Assembly (NCBI RefSeq): GCF_004364645.1
Contig: NZ_SOAW01000001.1
Location: 744,001-808,000, forward strand
Direction of reading: 5' to 3'
DNA: 64,000 nt
From: Naumannella halotolerans
Lineage (GTDB): Bacteria; Actinomycetota; Actinomycetes; Propionibacteriales; Propionibacteriaceae
Made by a program: the position numbers and the translations under genes. Under the pieces are notes generated by a model that did not search any database, was not told the DNA's origin, and saw only the letters and a program-made list of their open reading frames with translations. Below, one piece after another: positions 33,867 through 54,642 of this stretch. Numbering within the stretch: position 1 is the stretch's first letter; each line of letters opens with the position of its first letter.

Positions 33867-35528
33867 GTGGCCGACTCCGCACCGGCAGAGCTGGGTCGTT
33901 CCGGGCAGGCGACTGCCCGCAACGGCCGAGGTGGCAGCGAACTGCTGCAGGCACTTCTCTGGATCGCCCCGGCAACCACCCTGATCGTGCTGGTGGTCTT
34001 CTTCCCGGCCGGGCTGATGATCTTCAACTCGACACGTGAGATCTCCTTGTCGGGTCTGGATCGCGGCAGCGCGGGGTTCGACAACTTCGCCGAGTTGTTC
34101 GCCTTCCCGGCATTGCCGGCGGTCATCGGCCGGACGATCATCTGGGTCGGGGTGGTCGTCTCGCTGACCGTGTTGATCTCCCTGGCCATGGCACAGCTGC
34201 TGAACAAGGCATTCCCGGGGCGACGGCTGGTCCGGATGATCGTGATCATCCCGTGGGCGTCCAGTGTGGTGATGACGACGATGGTCGTCTACTACGGCCT
34301 GGAGGGCTACATCGGCATCATCAACAAGTTCTTCGTCGGCATCGGGCTGCTCGCCGAGCCCTACGGCTGGACCCGCAACGCGCTCCCCGCGTTCTGCTGG
34401 TCGATCGCGGTGGCCGTCTTCGTGTCCCTGCCGTTCACCACCTACACCTTGCTGGCGGGTCTGCAGACCGTACCCGAGGACGTGCTGGAGGCAGCCCAGG
34501 TCGACGGGGCGGGCCGGTTCTCCACCTACTTCCGGATCGTCCTGCCGCAGCTGCGCAGTGCACTGGCAGTGGCGGTCCTGATCAACATCATCAATGTGTT
34601 CAACTCGCTGCCGATCCTGCGGGTGATGACCGGGTCCATTCCCGGCTACGACGCCGACACCATCATGACCTTGATCTTCAAGTTCCTGCAGCGCGGTGAC
34701 TTCGCCCTGGCCAGCGCTCTCAGTGTGCTCGGATTCGGACTGTTGCTGTCGGTCGTCTTCCTGATTCCGTACGTGATCATGTTCTTCGGCTCGGTGAAGT
34801 CGAAGGCGGAGATCCGCAGTGTCGACCCGACCTACTTCCCTCGGGAGTGGCACTGGGACAACTACCTGACCATGTGGTCCACCCCGGAGACGCCGTTGTG
34901 GCAGAACCTGGTGTCGACCATCGTCATCTCCGTCGGTGCCACCGCTCTGGTGTTGCTGGTGGCCTTGCCCGCGGCCTACTACACCGCCCGCTTCCGGTTC
35001 CCGGGCCGAGTGGTGTTCCTCTCGCTGGTGATCATCACGCAGATGTTGCAACCGGCGGTGCTGACCGCCGGTATCTTCCGCGAGTTCAACCTGATCGGAT
35101 TGGACGACACCTGGTTGGCGATGATCCTGGTCAATGCGGCGTTCAACCTGTCCTTCGGAACCTGGATCATGCACTCCTTCTTCGCCGGTGTGCCGAAGGA
35201 GATCGACGAGGCGGCACAGATCGACGGTGCCGGCACCTGGGCGACCCTGTTGAGGATCAACCTGCCACTGGTCTGGCCGGGCATCGTGACTGCCACCATC
35301 TTCACCTTCGTCGCCTGCTGGAATGAGTTCGCGGCCTCGCTGATCCTGATGCGGACGCCGGGCAACCGCCCGCTGAGCGTGGCCCTGACCTCCTTCGTCG
35401 GGCAGTACGAGACCAGTTGGCAGTACGTCTTCGCCGTCTCCATCCTGTCGATCGTCCCGGTGGTGATCCTGTTCATGGCGATCGAGCGCAGGCTGATCGG
35501 CGGGCTGACAGCCGGTGCGGTGAAGTGA
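33867..35528 (+). CDS. Sugar ABC transporter permease, two permeases (MalF- and MalG-like) fused in one frame
   Basis: 553 residues from a GTG two bases after the binding-protein remnant. Two complete BPD_transp domains each have an EAA loop: EAAQVDGAGRFSTYFRIVLP (about residue 208) and EAAQIDGAGTWATLLRINLP (about 450). Residues about 275-320 run from the last helix of the first unit (ASALSVLGFGLLL) straight into the first helix of the second (SVVFLIPYVIMFFGSVKSKAE), so one hybrid helix appears to replace two. Carbohydrate permeases of this class are normally two proteins. No ATPase is encoded. Probably not functional with its binding protein broken. Confidence 0.8.
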   Translation: MADSAPAELGRSGQATARNGRGGSELLQALLWIAPATTLIVLVVFFPAGLMIFNSTREISLSGLDRGSAGFDNFAELFAFPALPAVIGRTIIWVGVVVSLTVLISLAMAQLLNKAFPGRRLVRMIVIIPWASSVVMTTMVVYYGLEGYIGIINKFFVGIGLLAEPYGWTRNALPAFCWSIAVAVFVSLPFTTYTLLAGLQTVPEDVLEAAQVDGAGRFSTYFRIVLPQLRSALAVAVLINIINVFNSLPILRVMTGSIPGYDADTIMTLIFKFLQRGDFALASALSVLGFGLLLSVVFLIPYVIMFFGSVKSKAEIRSVDPTYFPREWHWDNYLTMWSTPETPLWQNLVSTIVISVGATALVLLVALPAAYYTARFRFPGRVVFLSLVIITQMLQPAVLTAGIFREFNLIGLDDTWLAMILVNAAFNLSFGTWIMHSFFAGVPKEIDEAAQIDGAGTWATLLRINLPLVWPGIVTATIFTFVACWNEFAASLILMRTPGNRPLSVALTSFVGQYETSWQYVFAVSILSIVPVVILFMAIERRLIGGLTAGAVK

Positions 35529-39869: not shown

Positions 39870-39911
39870 ATGCACTGGCGGTTGTCCGGATGTGGTGTCA
39901 TAAGGAGGTGA
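39870..39911 (+). CDS. Possible 13-residue upstream ORF coupled to the IlvD/Edd gene
   Basis: ATG at 39870 reads MHWRLSGCGVIRR and stops at TGA 39909-39911. Its end contains TAAGGAGGTGA, a full-length match to the 16S anti-Shine-Dalgarno, and its stop overlaps the GTG at 39908 in GTGA form. This looks like a coupling arrangement, but there is no ribosome site for the small ORF and no branched-chain codon excess. Confidence 0.3.
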   Translation: MHWRLSGCGVIRR

Positions 39912-41698
39912 GTACGATCGCCCGTGAACCCGATTCCGTGTCGACGTCCGCCGAGGCGTGGAAGCCCGGCCAGGACTGTCAAGCCGTCGCCACCGCACAT
40001 CTACTGGGACAGGATCCGAATGACATCCATGGCCCCACCTGGGGTGTGGTGGGAACCCTCGGCGACTCGATCTGCTACGGCGGCGTACCGGACAAGGTGA
40101 ATGCGATCCATGCCGAACTGGCGCGGCGGATCACCGACTCCCAGCTGCACAAACGGCTGGTCTCACCCAACTACTCCGGTGGTGTCTCCGACGGTCAGCG
40201 CAACGGCACCCCGCAGATGCGCTACTCCCTGATCGGGCGGGAAACCACCCATGACGGGATGTCGCTGCACCTGGAGGGCAGCGACCTCGAAGGCGTGATC
40301 GCCGTCGTCGCCTGCGACAAGCCCCCGGTGGGTACGACCGCGGCACTGCTGGAGCGCAACGTACCGGCCGTGATCCACTCCGACGGGTCCATCCGTCCCG
40401 GCATCGACCCCGAGACCGGGGAGACGATCGACCTGGTCAGCTGCTTCCAGGTCGCCCAGGATCCGGACCCGGTCAAGCGCGAGCGCTGGGCCCGCAATGC
40501 CTGTCCCGGTATCGGCAGTTGCGGCGGCATGTTCACCTACAACACGATGCAGTCCTTCATCGCCACCATCGGGCTGGAGCCGGTGCACATGGTGGCCCCG
40601 GTCTCGGAGGACCCGCGGCGGATGGACCAGTTCCCACGCGAGCTGGTGGATTGCCTGTTGTTGATGACCGAGCAGAACATCCGCCCCCGCGACCTGGTCA
40701 CCCCCGCGGCCCTGCGCAACGGCATGATCGTCGCCATCGCCATGGGCGGGTCCACGAACGTCCTGCTGCACGCACCGGAGATCGCCCGCTCGGCCGGGAT
40801 CGACTTCTGGAACGAGGTGATGAGCCGGGACGAGTTCAACCAGCTCTCCCGCGACGTCCCGGTCCTGATCAACGCCCGTCCGTTCGGGAAGTACTACATG
40901 ACCGACATCGAGGACAAGGGCGGTCTGCAGGTCATCCTGAACGAACTGCTGAAGGCAGGGCTGCTCGACGGCAGCACCCTCACCTGCACCGGCGAGACCT
41001 TGGCCGAGCAGATCGCCCGGCTCGATCCGCCGGCGCCGGACGGTGACGTGATCCACGCCTTCAACACCCCCTACAAGAACACCGGAGGTCTTCGGGTGCT
41101 CTCGGGCAACCTGGCTCCCGACGGCGGGGCGGTGCTGAAGGTCGCCGGTGTCGAAGGCGGTATCGGGGCCGACAACCGGTTCGTCGGCCGCGCCCGCACC
41201 TTCGACAGCGAGCCGGCACTGCTGGACCAGTTGATCAACGCGCCGGAGGTCTTCGCCGACAACGACATGGTCGTCATCCGCTACGAGGGCCCGAAGGGTG
41301 CCCCCGGGATGCCGGAGATGCTCGACCCGACCTCGCGGATCACCACCTTGTGCCGGGAGCGGGGGATCACCATCGCCTTGATGACAGATGCCCGCTTCTC
41401 CGGTGGGTCGGTCGGCCTGGTGATCGGCCACGTCGGACCAGAGGCCGCGGTCGGCGGGCCGATCGCGCTGGTCCAGGACGGTGACACCATCGTGGTGGAC
41501 CTGAACGACGACACCTTGAACTGTGAGGAGCTCGGTGACCTGGCGGTCTTCGAGGATCGGCAGGCGCGGTGGCAGGCCGAGGCCGAGTCGAACGGCGGGC
41601 TCTCCCCGCACGTACGGGCCGTGCAGAGCCGACTGCTCAAGCGGATGCGGCTGCTGGCCAACCCGGCCATCCTCGGCGCAGGCATGGGTGAGGGCTGA
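39890..41698 (+). CDS. IlvD/Edd-family dehydratase, probable dihydroxy-acid dehydratase of an unusual subtype
   Basis: 602 residues from ATG 39890; GTG 39908 or 39938 are alternatives, and TAAGGAGG at 39901-39908 sits awkwardly for all of them. Conserved family blocks: SGGVSDGQRNGTPQMRYSL, IGSCGGMFTYNTMQ, AIAMGGSTNVLLH, and DARFSGGSVGLVIGHVGPEA. Three Cys suit an Fe-S cluster (DSICYGG, ACDKPPVG, GSCGGM), but the usual CDKNMPG-type block reads CDKPPVG. The branched-chain neighbourhood supports dihydroxy-acid dehydratase (to 2-keto acids for Val/Ile); sugar-acid dehydratase activity is an alternative. Confidence 0.75.
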   Translation: MWCHKEVSTIAREPDSVSTSAEAWKPGQDCQAVATAHLLGQDPNDIHGPTWGVVGTLGDSICYGGVPDKVNAIHAELARRITDSQLHKRLVSPNYSGGVSDGQRNGTPQMRYSLIGRETTHDGMSLHLEGSDLEGVIAVVACDKPPVGTTAALLERNVPAVIHSDGSIRPGIDPETGETIDLVSCFQVAQDPDPVKRERWARNACPGIGSCGGMFTYNTMQSFIATIGLEPVHMVAPVSEDPRRMDQFPRELVDCLLLMTEQNIRPRDLVTPAALRNGMIVAIAMGGSTNVLLHAPEIARSAGIDFWNEVMSRDEFNQLSRDVPVLINARPFGKYYMTDIEDKGGLQVILNELLKAGLLDGSTLTCTGETLAEQIARLDPPAPDGDVIHAFNTPYKNTGGLRVLSGNLAPDGGAVLKVAGVEGGIGADNRFVGRARTFDSEPALLDQLINAPEVFADNDMVVIRYEGPKGAPGMPEMLDPTSRITTLCRERGITIALMTDARFSGGSVGLVIGHVGPEAAVGGPIALVQDGDTIVVDLNDDTLNCEELGDLAVFEDRQARWQAEAESNGGLSPHVRAVQSRLLKRMRLLANPAILGAGMGEG

Positions 41699-42772: not shown

Positions 42773-42826
42773 GGTCGTTATCCGGCCACTGCTGCCACAT
42801 ACGGCAGCAGTGGCCGGATAACGACC
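42773..42826. repeat. Perfect palindrome with 24-bp arms and 6-base loop
   Basis: Left arm 42773-42796 (GGTCGTTATCCGGCCACTGC...), loop ACATAC, right arm 42803-42826, exact reverse complement. It lies between the M23 pseudogene and the ilvB leader promoter. Only CTTT follows, so it is a poor intrinsic terminator despite the very strong stem. Single copy in the window. Confidence 0.9.
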
Positions 42827-42904
42827 CTTTCTGCCAGTGAATCCCGTCGGGCGAGCAGATGATCCGACCTGGTGACCAGAAAGTGAGACGGGGCGTCCCG
42901 ACAG

Positions 42905-42939: not shown

Positions 42940-42981
42940 GTGCAGAGCATCCTCCTCGTAATCATCAGGCGTGTCGGCTGA
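42940..42981 (+). CDS. ilvB attenuation leader peptide
   Basis: 13 residues, MQSILLVIIRRVG, from GTG 42940 to TGA 42981. Seven of the 13 residues are Ile, Leu or Val, in a run ILLVII. This composition, with the downstream hairpin over the stop codon and a T-tailed terminator, is what ribosome-mediated attenuation by branched-chain aminoacyl-tRNA supply requires. The promoter spacing predicts that the peptide is translated from a leaderless start. Confidence 0.82.
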   Translation: MQSILLVIIRRVG

Positions 42982-43035
42982 CGCCATCAGTCACCGACAC
43001 GCTGCCCCGTTTGCCCACCGGCAACCGGGGTTTTT
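42971..43035 (+). terminator. ilvB attenuator: pause hairpin and intrinsic terminator
   Basis: Hairpin 1 pairs GTGTCGG (42971-42977) with CCGACAC (42994-43000), with CTGA/TCAG inside, and covers the leader stop codon. Hairpin 2 pairs CCCCGTTTGCC (43005-43015) with GGCAACCGGGG (43020-43030), 10 of 11, loop CACC, followed by TTTTT. When leader codons are translated freely the terminator should form; stalling would favour read-through. I could not assign the antiterminator pairing with confidence. Confidence 0.8.
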
Positions 43036-49357: not shown

Positions 49358-49410
49358 CGCTCGCCGTCTCAGGGAGCAGGACGAAGGTCTCATATGCCGG
49401 GATTTGTGGC

Positions 49411-51780: not shown

Positions 51781-52770
51781 ATGACCCTGACCGCGACGCT
51801 GCTGTTGCAGCTGCTCGCCTTCGCCGCGATCGGGCTCGTGGTGCTCCTCCTGCGCCGCCGGTCGATCGGCGGTGATCGGCTCGACGACGCCTTCATCGCC
51901 GGCTTCGCCCACCGGCTCGGGCTGCCGGTACCGGAGAGCTTCCGCCAGGGCATCACCGATCAGGTGGAGCTGCGCCGCAACCGGGTCTGGCGGTTCGGCC
52001 TGGCCGGCCTGCTGCTCGGACTGCTGGCCGGTGTCGTGGTGCTGCTGCTGGGTCACCATGTGATCGCCGACGTACTGCCGCTCTGGGGTGTGGTGCTGGG
52101 GGCAGCGATCGGCAGCTGGTCGGCCGTCCATTCCTATCGGGCCCGGTTGTCACCGCAAGCGCCACCACTGGAGCATGAGCGACCGGTGACGGTTGCGGCC
52201 TACACCACGGTGGGGGAGACGATCTCCCACTTCTGCGTACCGGTGATGATCGCAGTTGCCTGTGCGGCGATGTGGCTGATCGGTTCGGCGGCGCCGGATG
52301 CCGGGCCCGGGACCGCCGAGTTGTTGATCATCGCCAGTTGCTCGGCCGTGGTCTGCATCGGCGTCTGGCTGTGGTTCTGGCGCTCGGAGAGGCCACTGGT
52401 CCGGCTGCCGCACTTCGCCGAGGACCAGATCGACCTGGCCTGGTCCGATGCCATGCGCGCGGTCGCCCTGCGTGACCTACGGGAGGCCGGGCAGTTGCTC
52501 GGGCTGCTCGGATCGACCAGCTGCATGCTCGCCGCCGGGGCGCTGCTCTACCAGGTGTCCCCGCAGGTCCGCTCCGATCCGGAGCTGACCGCCACCTTGG
52601 GCACCGCGCTGCTCTACGTCCTCGGGGCCTGCTGGGCAGTGCTGATGATCCCGTCGTCGATCGGTTCGATGGTGCGCAATCCGACGCTGAAACTGCCCCC
52701 GCCCGAGGGCTTGGTCTACGACGTGCAGGCCGGGACCGAGGAGCCGGGGGAGCCGGGTACGCGTCGCTGA
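51781..52770 (+). CDS. Multi-pass membrane protein of unknown function
   Basis: 329 residues with about seven hydrophobic helices, for example LLLQLLAFAAIGLVVLLL, FGLAGLLLGLLAGVVVLLLG, VPVMIAVACAAMWLIG and LLYVLGACWAVLMIPSS. The polar segments are short except for an RSERPLVRLPHFAEDQIDLA loop. I do not recognise the family. Confidence 0.7.
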   Translation: MTLTATLLLQLLAFAAIGLVVLLLRRRSIGGDRLDDAFIAGFAHRLGLPVPESFRQGITDQVELRRNRVWRFGLAGLLLGLLAGVVVLLLGHHVIADVLPLWGVVLGAAIGSWSAVHSYRARLSPQAPPLEHERPVTVAAYTTVGETISHFCVPVMIAVACAAMWLIGSAAPDAGPGTAELLIIASCSAVVCIGVWLWFWRSERPLVRLPHFAEDQIDLAWSDAMRAVALRDLREAGQLLGLLGSTSCMLAAGALLYQVSPQVRSDPELTATLGTALLYVLGACWAVLMIPSSIGSMVRNPTLKLPPPEGLVYDVQAGTEEPGEPGTRR

Positions 52771-52869
52771 GGCCGCCGACCGGTACGTCGAACGCCCCCA
52801 CAGTGTCCTCGGCCGGGGATCGAGGGACCGCTCGACGAGACGCCTCGTACTGTATGTTGAGACGGGAAC

Positions 52870-52899
52870 TTGGCATCCGATGGGCGGCTGACAGAGACT
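52870..52899 (+). promoter_or_regulatory. Promoter of the cimA leader
   Basis: TTGGCA (52870-52875), 18-base spacer, GAGACT (52894-52899), then six bases to the leader GTG at 52906. The arrangement matches the ilvB leader promoter. Confidence 0.5.
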
Positions 52900-52905
52900 G
52901 AAGCC

Positions 52906-52941
52906 GTGCTCCGCATCGACATCATTGTGTGGCGCGTCTGA
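52906..52941 (+). CDS. cimA attenuation leader peptide
   Basis: 11 residues, MLRIDIIVWRV, from GTG 52906 to TGA 52941. Six of the 11 are Ile, Leu or Val, with three Ile codons, which suits control of an isoleucine-directed enzyme. It is followed directly by a hairpin over its stop and a six-T terminator, as in the ilvB leader. Confidence 0.78.
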   Translation: MLRIDIIVWRV

Positions 52942-52991
52942 CGGCCGAATCGTCGGACGCGCAGACCTCTCGTACCCACGAGAGGTTTTTT
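52932..52991 (+). terminator. cimA attenuator: pause hairpin and intrinsic terminator
   Basis: Hairpin 1 pairs GCGCGTC (52932-52938) with GACGCGC (52956-52962), continuing with GACG/CGTC after one mismatch, and covers the leader stop. Hairpin 2 is the perfect 8-bp CCTCTCGT / ACGAGAGG (52966-52973 with 52978-52985), loop ACCC, then TTTTTT. The cimA ATG is 32 bases after the T run. Confidence 0.82.
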
Positions 52992-53022: not shown

Positions 53023-54642
53023 ATGACGAACATCGTGGACCACAGCACCGTGGGCCTGCACGGCCGGGCGACCACCGCCCAGCCGGGTACCTTCCACGTC
53101 TACGACACCACGCTGCGCGACGGCGCCCAACAGGAGTCGATGCGACTGACGGTCGCCGACAAACTGCGGATCGCCGGCTATCTCGACGAACTCGGCGTCG
53201 GCTGGATCGAGGGCGGCTGGCCGGGTGCCAACCCCAATGACACCGCGTTCTTCGCCGCTGCCGCCGACGAACTCAACCTGAAGAACGCGACCCTGGTCGC
53301 CTTCGGGGCGACCCGCCGCGCCGGGGTCCGGGCAGCCGAGGACCCGCAGGTGCAGGCCCTGGTCGACTCCCTGGCCTCGACGGTCTGCCTGGTCGCCAAG
53401 AGCCACCGCGGGCATGTGGAACGGGCGCTGCGCACCACCGGCGAGGAGAACCTGGCCATGATCAGCGACACGGTCAGCTTCCTGGTCGACCAGGGGCGCC
53501 GGGTCTTCCTCGACTGCGAACACTTCTTCGACGGCTACCGGCTGGATCCCGACTACGCGCTGGAGGTCGTCCGGACGGCCAGCCGGGCCGGGGCCGAGGT
53601 GGTGGTCCTGTGTGACACCAATGGCGGGATGCTGCCGTCGTGGGTGCACGAGATCGTCTCCGAGGTGGCGAAGCTCGAGGTGCCGCTCGGGGTGCACTGC
53701 CACAACGACACCGGGTGCGCGGTGGCGAACACCCTGGCCGCGGTCGACGCCGGGGCGATCCACGTCCAGGGCACCATCAACGGCTACGGGGAACGGACCG
53801 GTAATGCCGACCTGATTCCGGTGATCGCCAACCTGGAACTCAAGTACGGCTGGGAACTGCTGCCCGAGGGTCGACTGGCCGAGGCCACCCGGATCTCCAA
53901 TGCCATCGCCGCGGTGACCAATGTGGTCGGCTCACCGCGACAGCCCTACGTCGGTGCCTCCGCCTTCGCCCACAAGGCCGGCCTGCACGCCAGTGCGATC
54001 AGGATCGACCCGAACCTCTACCAGCACATCGATCCGGCGGTGGTCGGCAACGGGATGCGCACCCTGGTCTCCGACATGGCCGGCCGGGCGAACATCCAGT
54101 TGAAGGGCTCCGAGCTGGGTTTCGACCTGTCCGACCGCGAGCTCGCGGCCACGGTCACCGATGTGGTGAAGGAACGCGAGGCCCGCGGCTACTCCTACGA
54201 GGCCGCCGACGCCAGCTTCGAGCTGTTGTTGACCGAGTACGTCGGTGAACGGCCCGCCGAGGCCTTCACCGTCGATCACTGGCGGATCCATTCCGGCGCC
54301 GACCACACCGGTCGGACGGTGAACGAGGCGACGGTGAAACTGACCGCCAACGACGAGACCCATCTGGTGGTGGGGGAGGGCAACGGCCCGGTGAATGCCC
54401 TGGACCAGGCGCTGCGCCGCGGTCTCAGCATGGCCTACCCGCGGATCGCCGACTTCGAACTGGTCGACTACAAGGTACGGATCCTCGATTCCACCCACGG
54501 CACCGATGCCATCACCCGGGTGATGATCGACACCAGCGACGGTGAACGGACCTGGACCACCGTGGGCGTCGGGTCCAACATCATCGACGCGTCCTGGGAG
54601 GCCCTGGTCGACTCCTTCCGGTACGGTCTGCTGCGCGCCTGA
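53023..54642 (+). CDS. cimA: Citramalate synthase
   Basis: 539 residues from ATG 53023. DRE-TIM family: YDTTLRDGAQQESMRL (metal Asp and catalytic Arg), EGGWPGANPND, GVHCHNDTGCAVAN (HxH metal site), GTINGYGERTGNADL, then a LeuA-type regulatory C-terminal domain (from about residue 415). EGGWPG and the length fit the CimA group rather than LeuA or homocitrate synthase. Condenses pyruvate with acetyl-CoA to citramalate, giving a threonine-independent route to 2-ketobutyrate and isoleucine. Confidence 0.93.
   Translation: MTNIVDHSTVGLHGRATTAQPGTFHVYDTTLRDGAQQESMRLTVADKLRIAGYLDELGVGWIEGGWPGANPNDTAFFAAAADELNLKNATLVAFGATRRAGVRAAEDPQVQALVDSLASTVCLVAKSHRGHVERALRTTGEENLAMISDTVSFLVDQGRRVFLDCEHFFDGYRLDPDYALEVVRTASRAGAEVVVLCDTNGGMLPSWVHEIVSEVAKLEVPLGVHCHNDTGCAVANTLAAVDAGAIHVQGTINGYGERTGNADLIPVIANLELKYGWELLPEGRLAEATRISNAIAAVTNVVGSPRQPYVGASAFAHKAGLHASAIRIDPNLYQHIDPAVVGNGMRTLVSDMAGRANIQLKGSELGFDLSDRELAATVTDVVKEREARGYSYEAADASFELLLTEYVGERPAEAFTVDHWRIHSGADHTGRTVNEATVKLTANDETHLVVGEGNGPVNALDQALRRGLSMAYPRIADFELVDYKVRILDSTHGTDAITRVMIDTSDGERTWTTVGVGSNIIDASWEALVDSFRYGLLRA

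Follow-up and report, generated by a model that had tools for sequence, protein, structure and literature searches.

We present here a leader upstream of cimA, the gene for citramalate synthase, in Naumannella halotolerans that, judged from sequence comparison, is likely to act as a ribosome-mediated, isoleucine-responsive transcription attenuator. The leader lies in a 64,000-nucleotide stretch of DNA, the whole of which is referred to here as the window. The proposed cimA attenuator is known in kind and unusual in extent and clarity; it belongs to a codon-swapped leader family that is widespread and in which classical alternative hairpins do not explain how switching occurs.

The cimA leader and its companions in the source genome

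The first-pass annotation had described upstream of cimA the arrangement TTGGCA-N18-GAGACT, six bases, a GTG opening MLRIDIIVWRV, a hairpin over the stop and a terminator with six T, and all of these parts were recovered in place (Table 1). The leader stop is a TGA (52939-52941) inside the first hairpin, P1, and the Ile codons comprise two adjacent and one apart, with no triple run. The ATG of cimA at 53023, which is favoured over an in-frame upstream TTG at 52990, lies 31 nt beyond the last T of the terminator. The leader RNA has a fold z-score of -4.06, none of 200 dinucleotide shuffles being equally stable. As for the promoter that had been read from the two hexamers, these are present, but they are weak alone and a sigma-70 scan of them returned 0 matches; in 25 of 32 compact cimA leaders, however, A stands at -11 and T at -7, and shifting this letter pair to 31 other offsets gives a mean of 0.5 and at most 6. 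A same-genus genome (L083/L123) carries the leader MHRLSIIIAQRV* (the asterisk marking the stop) at the corresponding place before cimA. Rfam scans of the window and 18 loci gave no T-box or riboswitch match, and in these scans the T-box covariance model found no match for the cimA leader.

Table 1. Features of the cimA and ilvB leaders, in window positions
Feature	Position	Strand	Remarks
ilvB leader MQSILLVIIRRVG*	42940..42981	+	tandem layout as in the cimA leader
ilvB P1 and P2 with T5	42968..43035	+	same family as the cimA element
Operator candidate TGAGACGGG	52858..52866	+	immediately 5' of the -35 hexamer; putative function
-35-like hexamer TTGGCA	52870..52875	+	weak by sequence
-10-like hexamer GAGACT	52894..52899	+	18 nt after TTGGCA; contains A(-11) and T(-7), counted from the leader start
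Leader ORF MLRIDIIVWRV*	52906..52941	+	leaderless, 11 codons; GTG start 6 nt after GAGACT
Ile control codons ATC ATT	52921..52926	+	at -11 and -8 relative to P1
Hairpin P1	52932..52962	+	13 pairs, 52932-52944 with 52950-52962; 5' arm covers last codons and stop
Hairpin P2 with T6, intrinsic terminator	52963..52991	+	11 pairs, loop 4, zero gap to P1; T at 52986-52991
cimA, citramalate synthase	53023..54642	+	TIGR00977, 616 bits against a cut-off of 450

To look beyond this locus we used R1, a covariance model made from cimA leaders only. In an unfiltered scan of the window R1 picked up the ilvB leader (25.2 bits, E 7.7e-6), which is absent from the genome-wide R1 listings; the window scan also gave a match at 35028-35078 (17.7 bits) that we took as chance, as it falls within a 553-aa reading frame. 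Genome-wide, R1 found the cimA leader and one more place (C1:1681536-1681588), which lies just 5' of a leuS frame (TIGR00396 at 736 bits, cut-off 548), where TACAAT and six bases precede MARALLLLGPR*. A leuA (L002) leader candidate, MVLLLIRRSGAR*, stands 278 nt before the aligned part of its gene and gave no R1 match. The pathway of the source genome thus carries at least three leaders of one design, before cimA, ilvB and leuS. The first-pass annotation had seen two independent attenuators of the same design, forming a small regulon: sameness of design stands, as the ilvB leader shares the tandem layout, whereas independence does not, since both belong to one family and R1 finds the ilvB leader; the regulon proved larger than proposed, with the third leader upstream of leuS.

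Several further features were noted in the window. Upstream of the ilvB leader, positions 42773-42826 form a perfect inverted repeat of 24 bases around a 6-base loop. The dehydratase frame at 39890-41698 is IlvD-like and scores below the NCBIfam cut-off of each of the 8 listed families, so it is perhaps not a canonical IlvD. Exact copies of TGAGACGGG occur in the window only at 42884-42892 and 52858-52866 on the + strand, just 5' of the ilvB and cimA leader promoters; a one-mismatch copy (49363-49371, - strand) lies 22 bases before the leuB frame at 49394, and TGAGAC also precedes cimA in several relatives that lack the attenuator. TGAGACGGG may possibly be an operator common to the two leaders, its copy number being not above chance, and a literature search on the LtbR motif yielded only unrelated papers.

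Conservation of the cimA leader and its tandem hairpins

CimA loci were read upstream in named genomes, taking the best 80 of 586. A strong P2-type terminator was present upstream of cimA in 72 of these best 80 loci, and at all 72 at least one of the two preceding short ORFs listed, in a listing ranked by I, L and V content, has an Ile codon. The terminator was not found at the other 8 of the 80, namely seven Propionibacteriaceae-type records and one unplaced MAG. Leader endings are mostly IIIR*, IIIT* or IIIS* in Nocardioides and VIID*, IIIG* or LIIG* in Intrasporangiaceae-type loci, and the Streptomyces leaders are mostly MLSFAMIIGSRRAGPQ* or near variants. Within the family, CimA is carried by 121 of 147 genomes, and an R1 match adjoins cimA in 28 of these 121, a figure that is a lower bound because strict filters were applied and that is not independent because many R1 seeds come from the same family; the other 93 have no R1 match adjoining cimA at E 0.1. 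At the order level R1 matched 89 of 117 genomes. From an extra batch of 35 order matches, all 20 strong ones, picked along the list and possibly overlapping in species with the seeds, precede cimA and have an Ile codon in the block; the 15 weaker ones include 8 before leuS with Leu runs, 5 before ilvB with Leu and Val, and 2 with no recognisable gene behind them.

Both hairpins are supported by compensatory changes. Alignment A1 holds 30 compact cimA leaders, L017 and L018 having been dropped from the 32 for a long P1. RNAalifold recovered P1 and P2 from it with double changes in 8 of 18 pairs and 97.2% of cells paired; the covariation score was reached by none of 500 shuffles and the number of double-changed pairs by one of 500. 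Alignment A2, in which 78 elements were aligned to the model and which is hence structure-biased by construction, gave 97.5% of cells paired and double changes in 16 of 18 pairs, with none of 500 shuffles as high; when partners were shifted by 1-3 columns pairing fell to 48-54%. The 78 elements come from sources hand-chosen by the analyst. Left out, with an unclear or other downstream gene, were L155, L174, L183, L185, L186, L187, L190 and L197, and further omissions were L180, L188, L189, L196, some cimA family loci and near duplicates such as L148; L154 is included with a wrongly chosen frame, kept as computed. The gap between the last pair of P1 and the P2 core is 1-2 nt in 61 of the 78 elements. 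The stop codon is UAG in 71, and in 62 the G of the stop opens the pairing of P1. The GCGC at the base of P1 and the CCTC of a P2 arm are conserved as sequence, beyond need since pairing alone does not demand it, and the loops vary. The comparison shows the leader with its Ile codons and the hairpins P1 and P2, as well as how these parts are arranged and conserved.

Downstream genes and control codons across Actinomycetota

Scanning with the cimA-only model gave matches before cimA, ilvB, leuS, leuA and leuB-aminotransferase-cimA gene rows in many Actinomycetota families, 72 of 296 genomes of the phylum having an R1 match at E <=0.01. Inspection covered the best 52 phylum matches (E up to 4.8e-5), behind which the same-strand gene is ilvB in 32, cimA in 6, leuA in 4, leuS in 4, leuB in 3 and other or unclear in 3. 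The leuA loci (L160, L168, L202, L203) and leuS loci (L176, L199, L201, L208) exceed the NCBIfam cut-offs. At some ilvB loci 0.3-0.7 kb separate the element from the matched gene portion, so that another reading frame may lie between them. All three leuB leaders head rows of LeuB, an IlvE-like protein (27-28% identity) and CimA (51-52%). The window element belongs to the branched-chain amino acid (BCAA) tandem-hairpin class as drawn from ilvB, leuS and cimA, having a leaderless start, a block 8-14 nt before P1 and P2 within a few nt.

The three of these 52 matches with other or unclear genes stand before genes of other pathways, a point against the attenuator reading. L155 has a prephenate dehydratase downstream and a divergent IlvD-like gene; L190 (E 3e-7), from another class of the phylum, has a leader ending VAIA* before isocitrate lyase; and an aminotransferase lies behind L197. 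The weak matches L183 and L187, with leaders ending GELIS* and GEVIS*, precede a ketopantoate-reductase-like gene (ApbA/PanE family), possibly a further target tied to the valine branch.

A leader frame was readable in all 78 chosen elements. The mean share of I, L and V among the last codons was 0.70; composition shuffles, with frames chosen by the same rule and a missing leader scored as zero, gave 0.06. Block residues differ with the gene downstream: I64 V15 L3 for cimA, I7 V4 for leuB, V66 L54 I31 for ilvB, L13 for leuA and L20 V1 for leuS. With shared ancestry uncorrected, none of 20000 permutations reached the Ile share of cimA and leuB against the rest, and none of 20000 the Leu share of leuA and leuS against the rest. 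Choosing the frame in this way raises I, L and V jointly and none of them over the others, so the association of block with gene holds.

Rare synonyms are commoner in the blocks than in the genes, ATT making up 38/102 against 117/1799, GTA 35/86 against 60/3335 and CTT 30/90 against 89/3028. Among 53 Streptomyces-type leaders, collected without a codon condition and, as close relatives, not independent, ATT accounts for 87 of 94 Ile codons at block positions compared with 4 of 965 in cimA; a Streptomyces promoter profile was seen in 47 of 51 leaders of a set whose search pattern required ATT. The use of rare codons as control codons has been called an oversimplified rule (PMC1183508). In compact leaders the codon register is near constant at -14, -11 and -8 from the first base of P1, a few rows being misaligned by at least one base, and codons sit at -14 and -11 in 48 of the 53 Streptomyces-type leaders, though their stops sit elsewhere. 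Taken together, the recurrent Ile codons, the compensatory changes in both hairpins, the leaderless promoter position, the rare control codons and the gene-following block uphold the earlier proposal of an isoleucine-tuned attenuator before cimA.

Known leaders, the switching step and rival explanations

In the E. coli ilvGMEDA and trp attenuators the control codons are cognate to the pathway product and a terminator precedes the first gene. The cimA leader would work like these, with product-cognate control codons and an intrinsic terminator before the gene, but no alternative 1:2/2:3/3:4 set was found, and a mutually exclusive antiterminator helix was not conserved among the 78 folded elements. 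Closer to home, the ilvB leaders of C. glutamicum, Corynebacterium (ilvB-II uORF), M. tuberculosis (ilvB1) and Streptomyces (ilvL) likewise combine a BCAA-rich uORF, hairpins and an intrinsic terminator (PMC11857589, PMC10272879, PMC13236596, PMC8079986), the uORF in C. glutamicum and Streptomyces being leaderless or a single base away from the start site, and an ilvB uORF motif has been described in Corynebacterium (PMC11109978). Here, by contrast, cimA lies downstream and the block is mostly isoleucine; an antiterminator is proposed in the Corynebacterium and M. tuberculosis papers, whereas none that is conserved was found in the present family. The Streptomyces leuS leader (leuL2, MRAVRLLLSEPR*) is likewise leaderless, with a hairpin and a U run (PMC8079986), but it carries a Leu block and has been called a classical attenuator with an antiterminator (PMC1262725). 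The LEU element of leuA, in the same phylum, also encodes a leader peptide with a run of BCAA codons; it differs in having no terminator, unlike the region before cimA, and a pseudoknot involving the Shine-Dalgarno region (PMC1262725). The accessible part of that paper covers ilvB, leuA, leuS, trp, trpS and cys leaders, some without attenuator parts, and does not name cimA; nor is cimA among the eight Streptomyces lividans leaders of Table 4 in PMC8079986. The word citramal- is absent from the main text of PMC11109978, PMC11857589, PMC10272879, PMC4833913 and PMC13236596, and within the open-access literature, to which the search extended, we found no cimA attenuator, one paper that it turned up being on archaeal valine production.

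We infer a transcription start site, ribosome stalling and premature termination at the cimA leader. Transcription would begin at or next to the GTG of the leaderless leader, and translation would be immediate. With ample charged isoleucine tRNA the leader would be read through and RNA polymerase would halt at P2. When isoleucine is scarce, the ribosome would stall on ATC/ATT a few bases 5' of P1 and alter the RNA between ribosome and polymerase, allowing readthrough into cimA, which would raise citramalate and with it the supply of isoleucine.

How a stall would act on the terminator was explored by folding with a masked ribosome, whose edge was set at the toeprint distance of 15 nt, counted from the P-site codon's first base. 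With the -14 codon in the A site P1 was whole in 77 of 78 folds; the -11 codon left about two thirds of the P1 core pairs and the -8 codon about a fifth, and at the -2 codon, which is the stop in 62 of 78, no P1 core pairs remained. P2 was kept in 77 or 78 of the 78 folds at every ribosome codon tested, and in 32 of 32 compact cimA leaders; since P2 persists in every ribosome state, thermodynamic folding gives no switch. Our guess is that intact P1, usually 1-2 bases from the P2 core, would make it harder for the base of the terminator to close, and that P1 would be opened by a ribosome at the stop, although the sign may be opposite, P1 assisting P2 through stacking. We lean towards intact P1 opposing the terminator because P1 survives an early stall in the block and is lost once the ribosome gets to the stop; the published account of M. 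tuberculosis ilvB1 (PMC13236596) follows the same reasoning, and that of C. glutamicum ilvBNC (PMC11857589) comes close to it. A simple steric version is disfavoured, because loss of the leader start codon in C. glutamicum lowered expression by 80% (PMC11857589) whereas a steric P1 predicts translation-free readthrough.

The persistence of P2 in all simulated ribosome states would also suit a constitutive terminator, serving as an upstream end or a fixed brake with the short ORF incidental, and an upstream ORF does end at 52770. We regard this as very improbable, since the gene-tracking block, the rare-codon enrichment and the near-fixed register between codons and P1 would then lack a reason. 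Hardly more probable, in our view, is binding of a protein or small molecule to the RNA, or translational control, with the peptide merely marking the pathway. A protein ligand has been proposed for the terminator-less LEU element of leuA, and altered candidate control codons of S. coelicolor ilvB were reportedly without effect (both PMC1262725). That result is the most forceful argument in print against simple codon sensing, while in M. tuberculosis ilvB1 the response was lost when LVVI was changed to AAAA (PMC13236596). The conserved GCGC and CCTC would also fit such binding. Against it, the loops vary, the block follows the gene, and the Rfam scans described above gave no T-box or riboswitch match.

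A more serious rival, though still an unlikely one, is classical attenuation of the E. coli type with an antiterminator that the folds missed, either as a pseudoknot or through partial overlap as in C. glutamicum ilvBNC, where antiterminator and terminator have just three boundary bases in common (PMC11857589). An antiterminator is reported for the Streptomyces leuS leaders (PMC1262725), a class that R1 also detects, P1 and P2 abut, and in 18 of 78 elements the local 2:3 fold drops below -4 kcal/mol. However, a search of the 78 elements and the 32 compact cimA leaders for a conserved mutually exclusive antiterminator found none, P1 and P2 coexisting in the folds, and a conserved 2:3 helix was rejected for want of a consistent rival pairing, the median 2:3 energy being -2.5 kcal/mol. 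General sharing of bases at the P1/P2 boundary was likewise rejected: the first flanking pair extends P1 in 30 of 78 elements (shuffled mean 23.5, maximum 30) and the first two in only 10 of 78.

Returning to ribosome-mediated attenuation, a bolder reading, which we hold to be somewhat less likely than not, is that Actinomycetota share one BCAA attenuator chassis, retargeted via the codons of the block, in which the ribosome sets the state of an abutting hairpin without mutually exclusive structures. This chassis would consist of a leaderless start, a three-codon block, usually a UAG whose G opens P1, and a flush terminator.

To conclude, leader-peptide control would here reach citramalate synthase, the enzyme that opens the threonine-independent route to isoleucine. 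The 2005 question of how actinobacterial BCAA leaders that seemingly miss attenuator parts are switched is reopened, now with a testable geometry. A single compact RNA design appears to be tuned by its codons to each gene throughout a phylum that includes major producers of antibiotics and amino acids, and one simple switch thus seems to tune a whole nutrient pathway.
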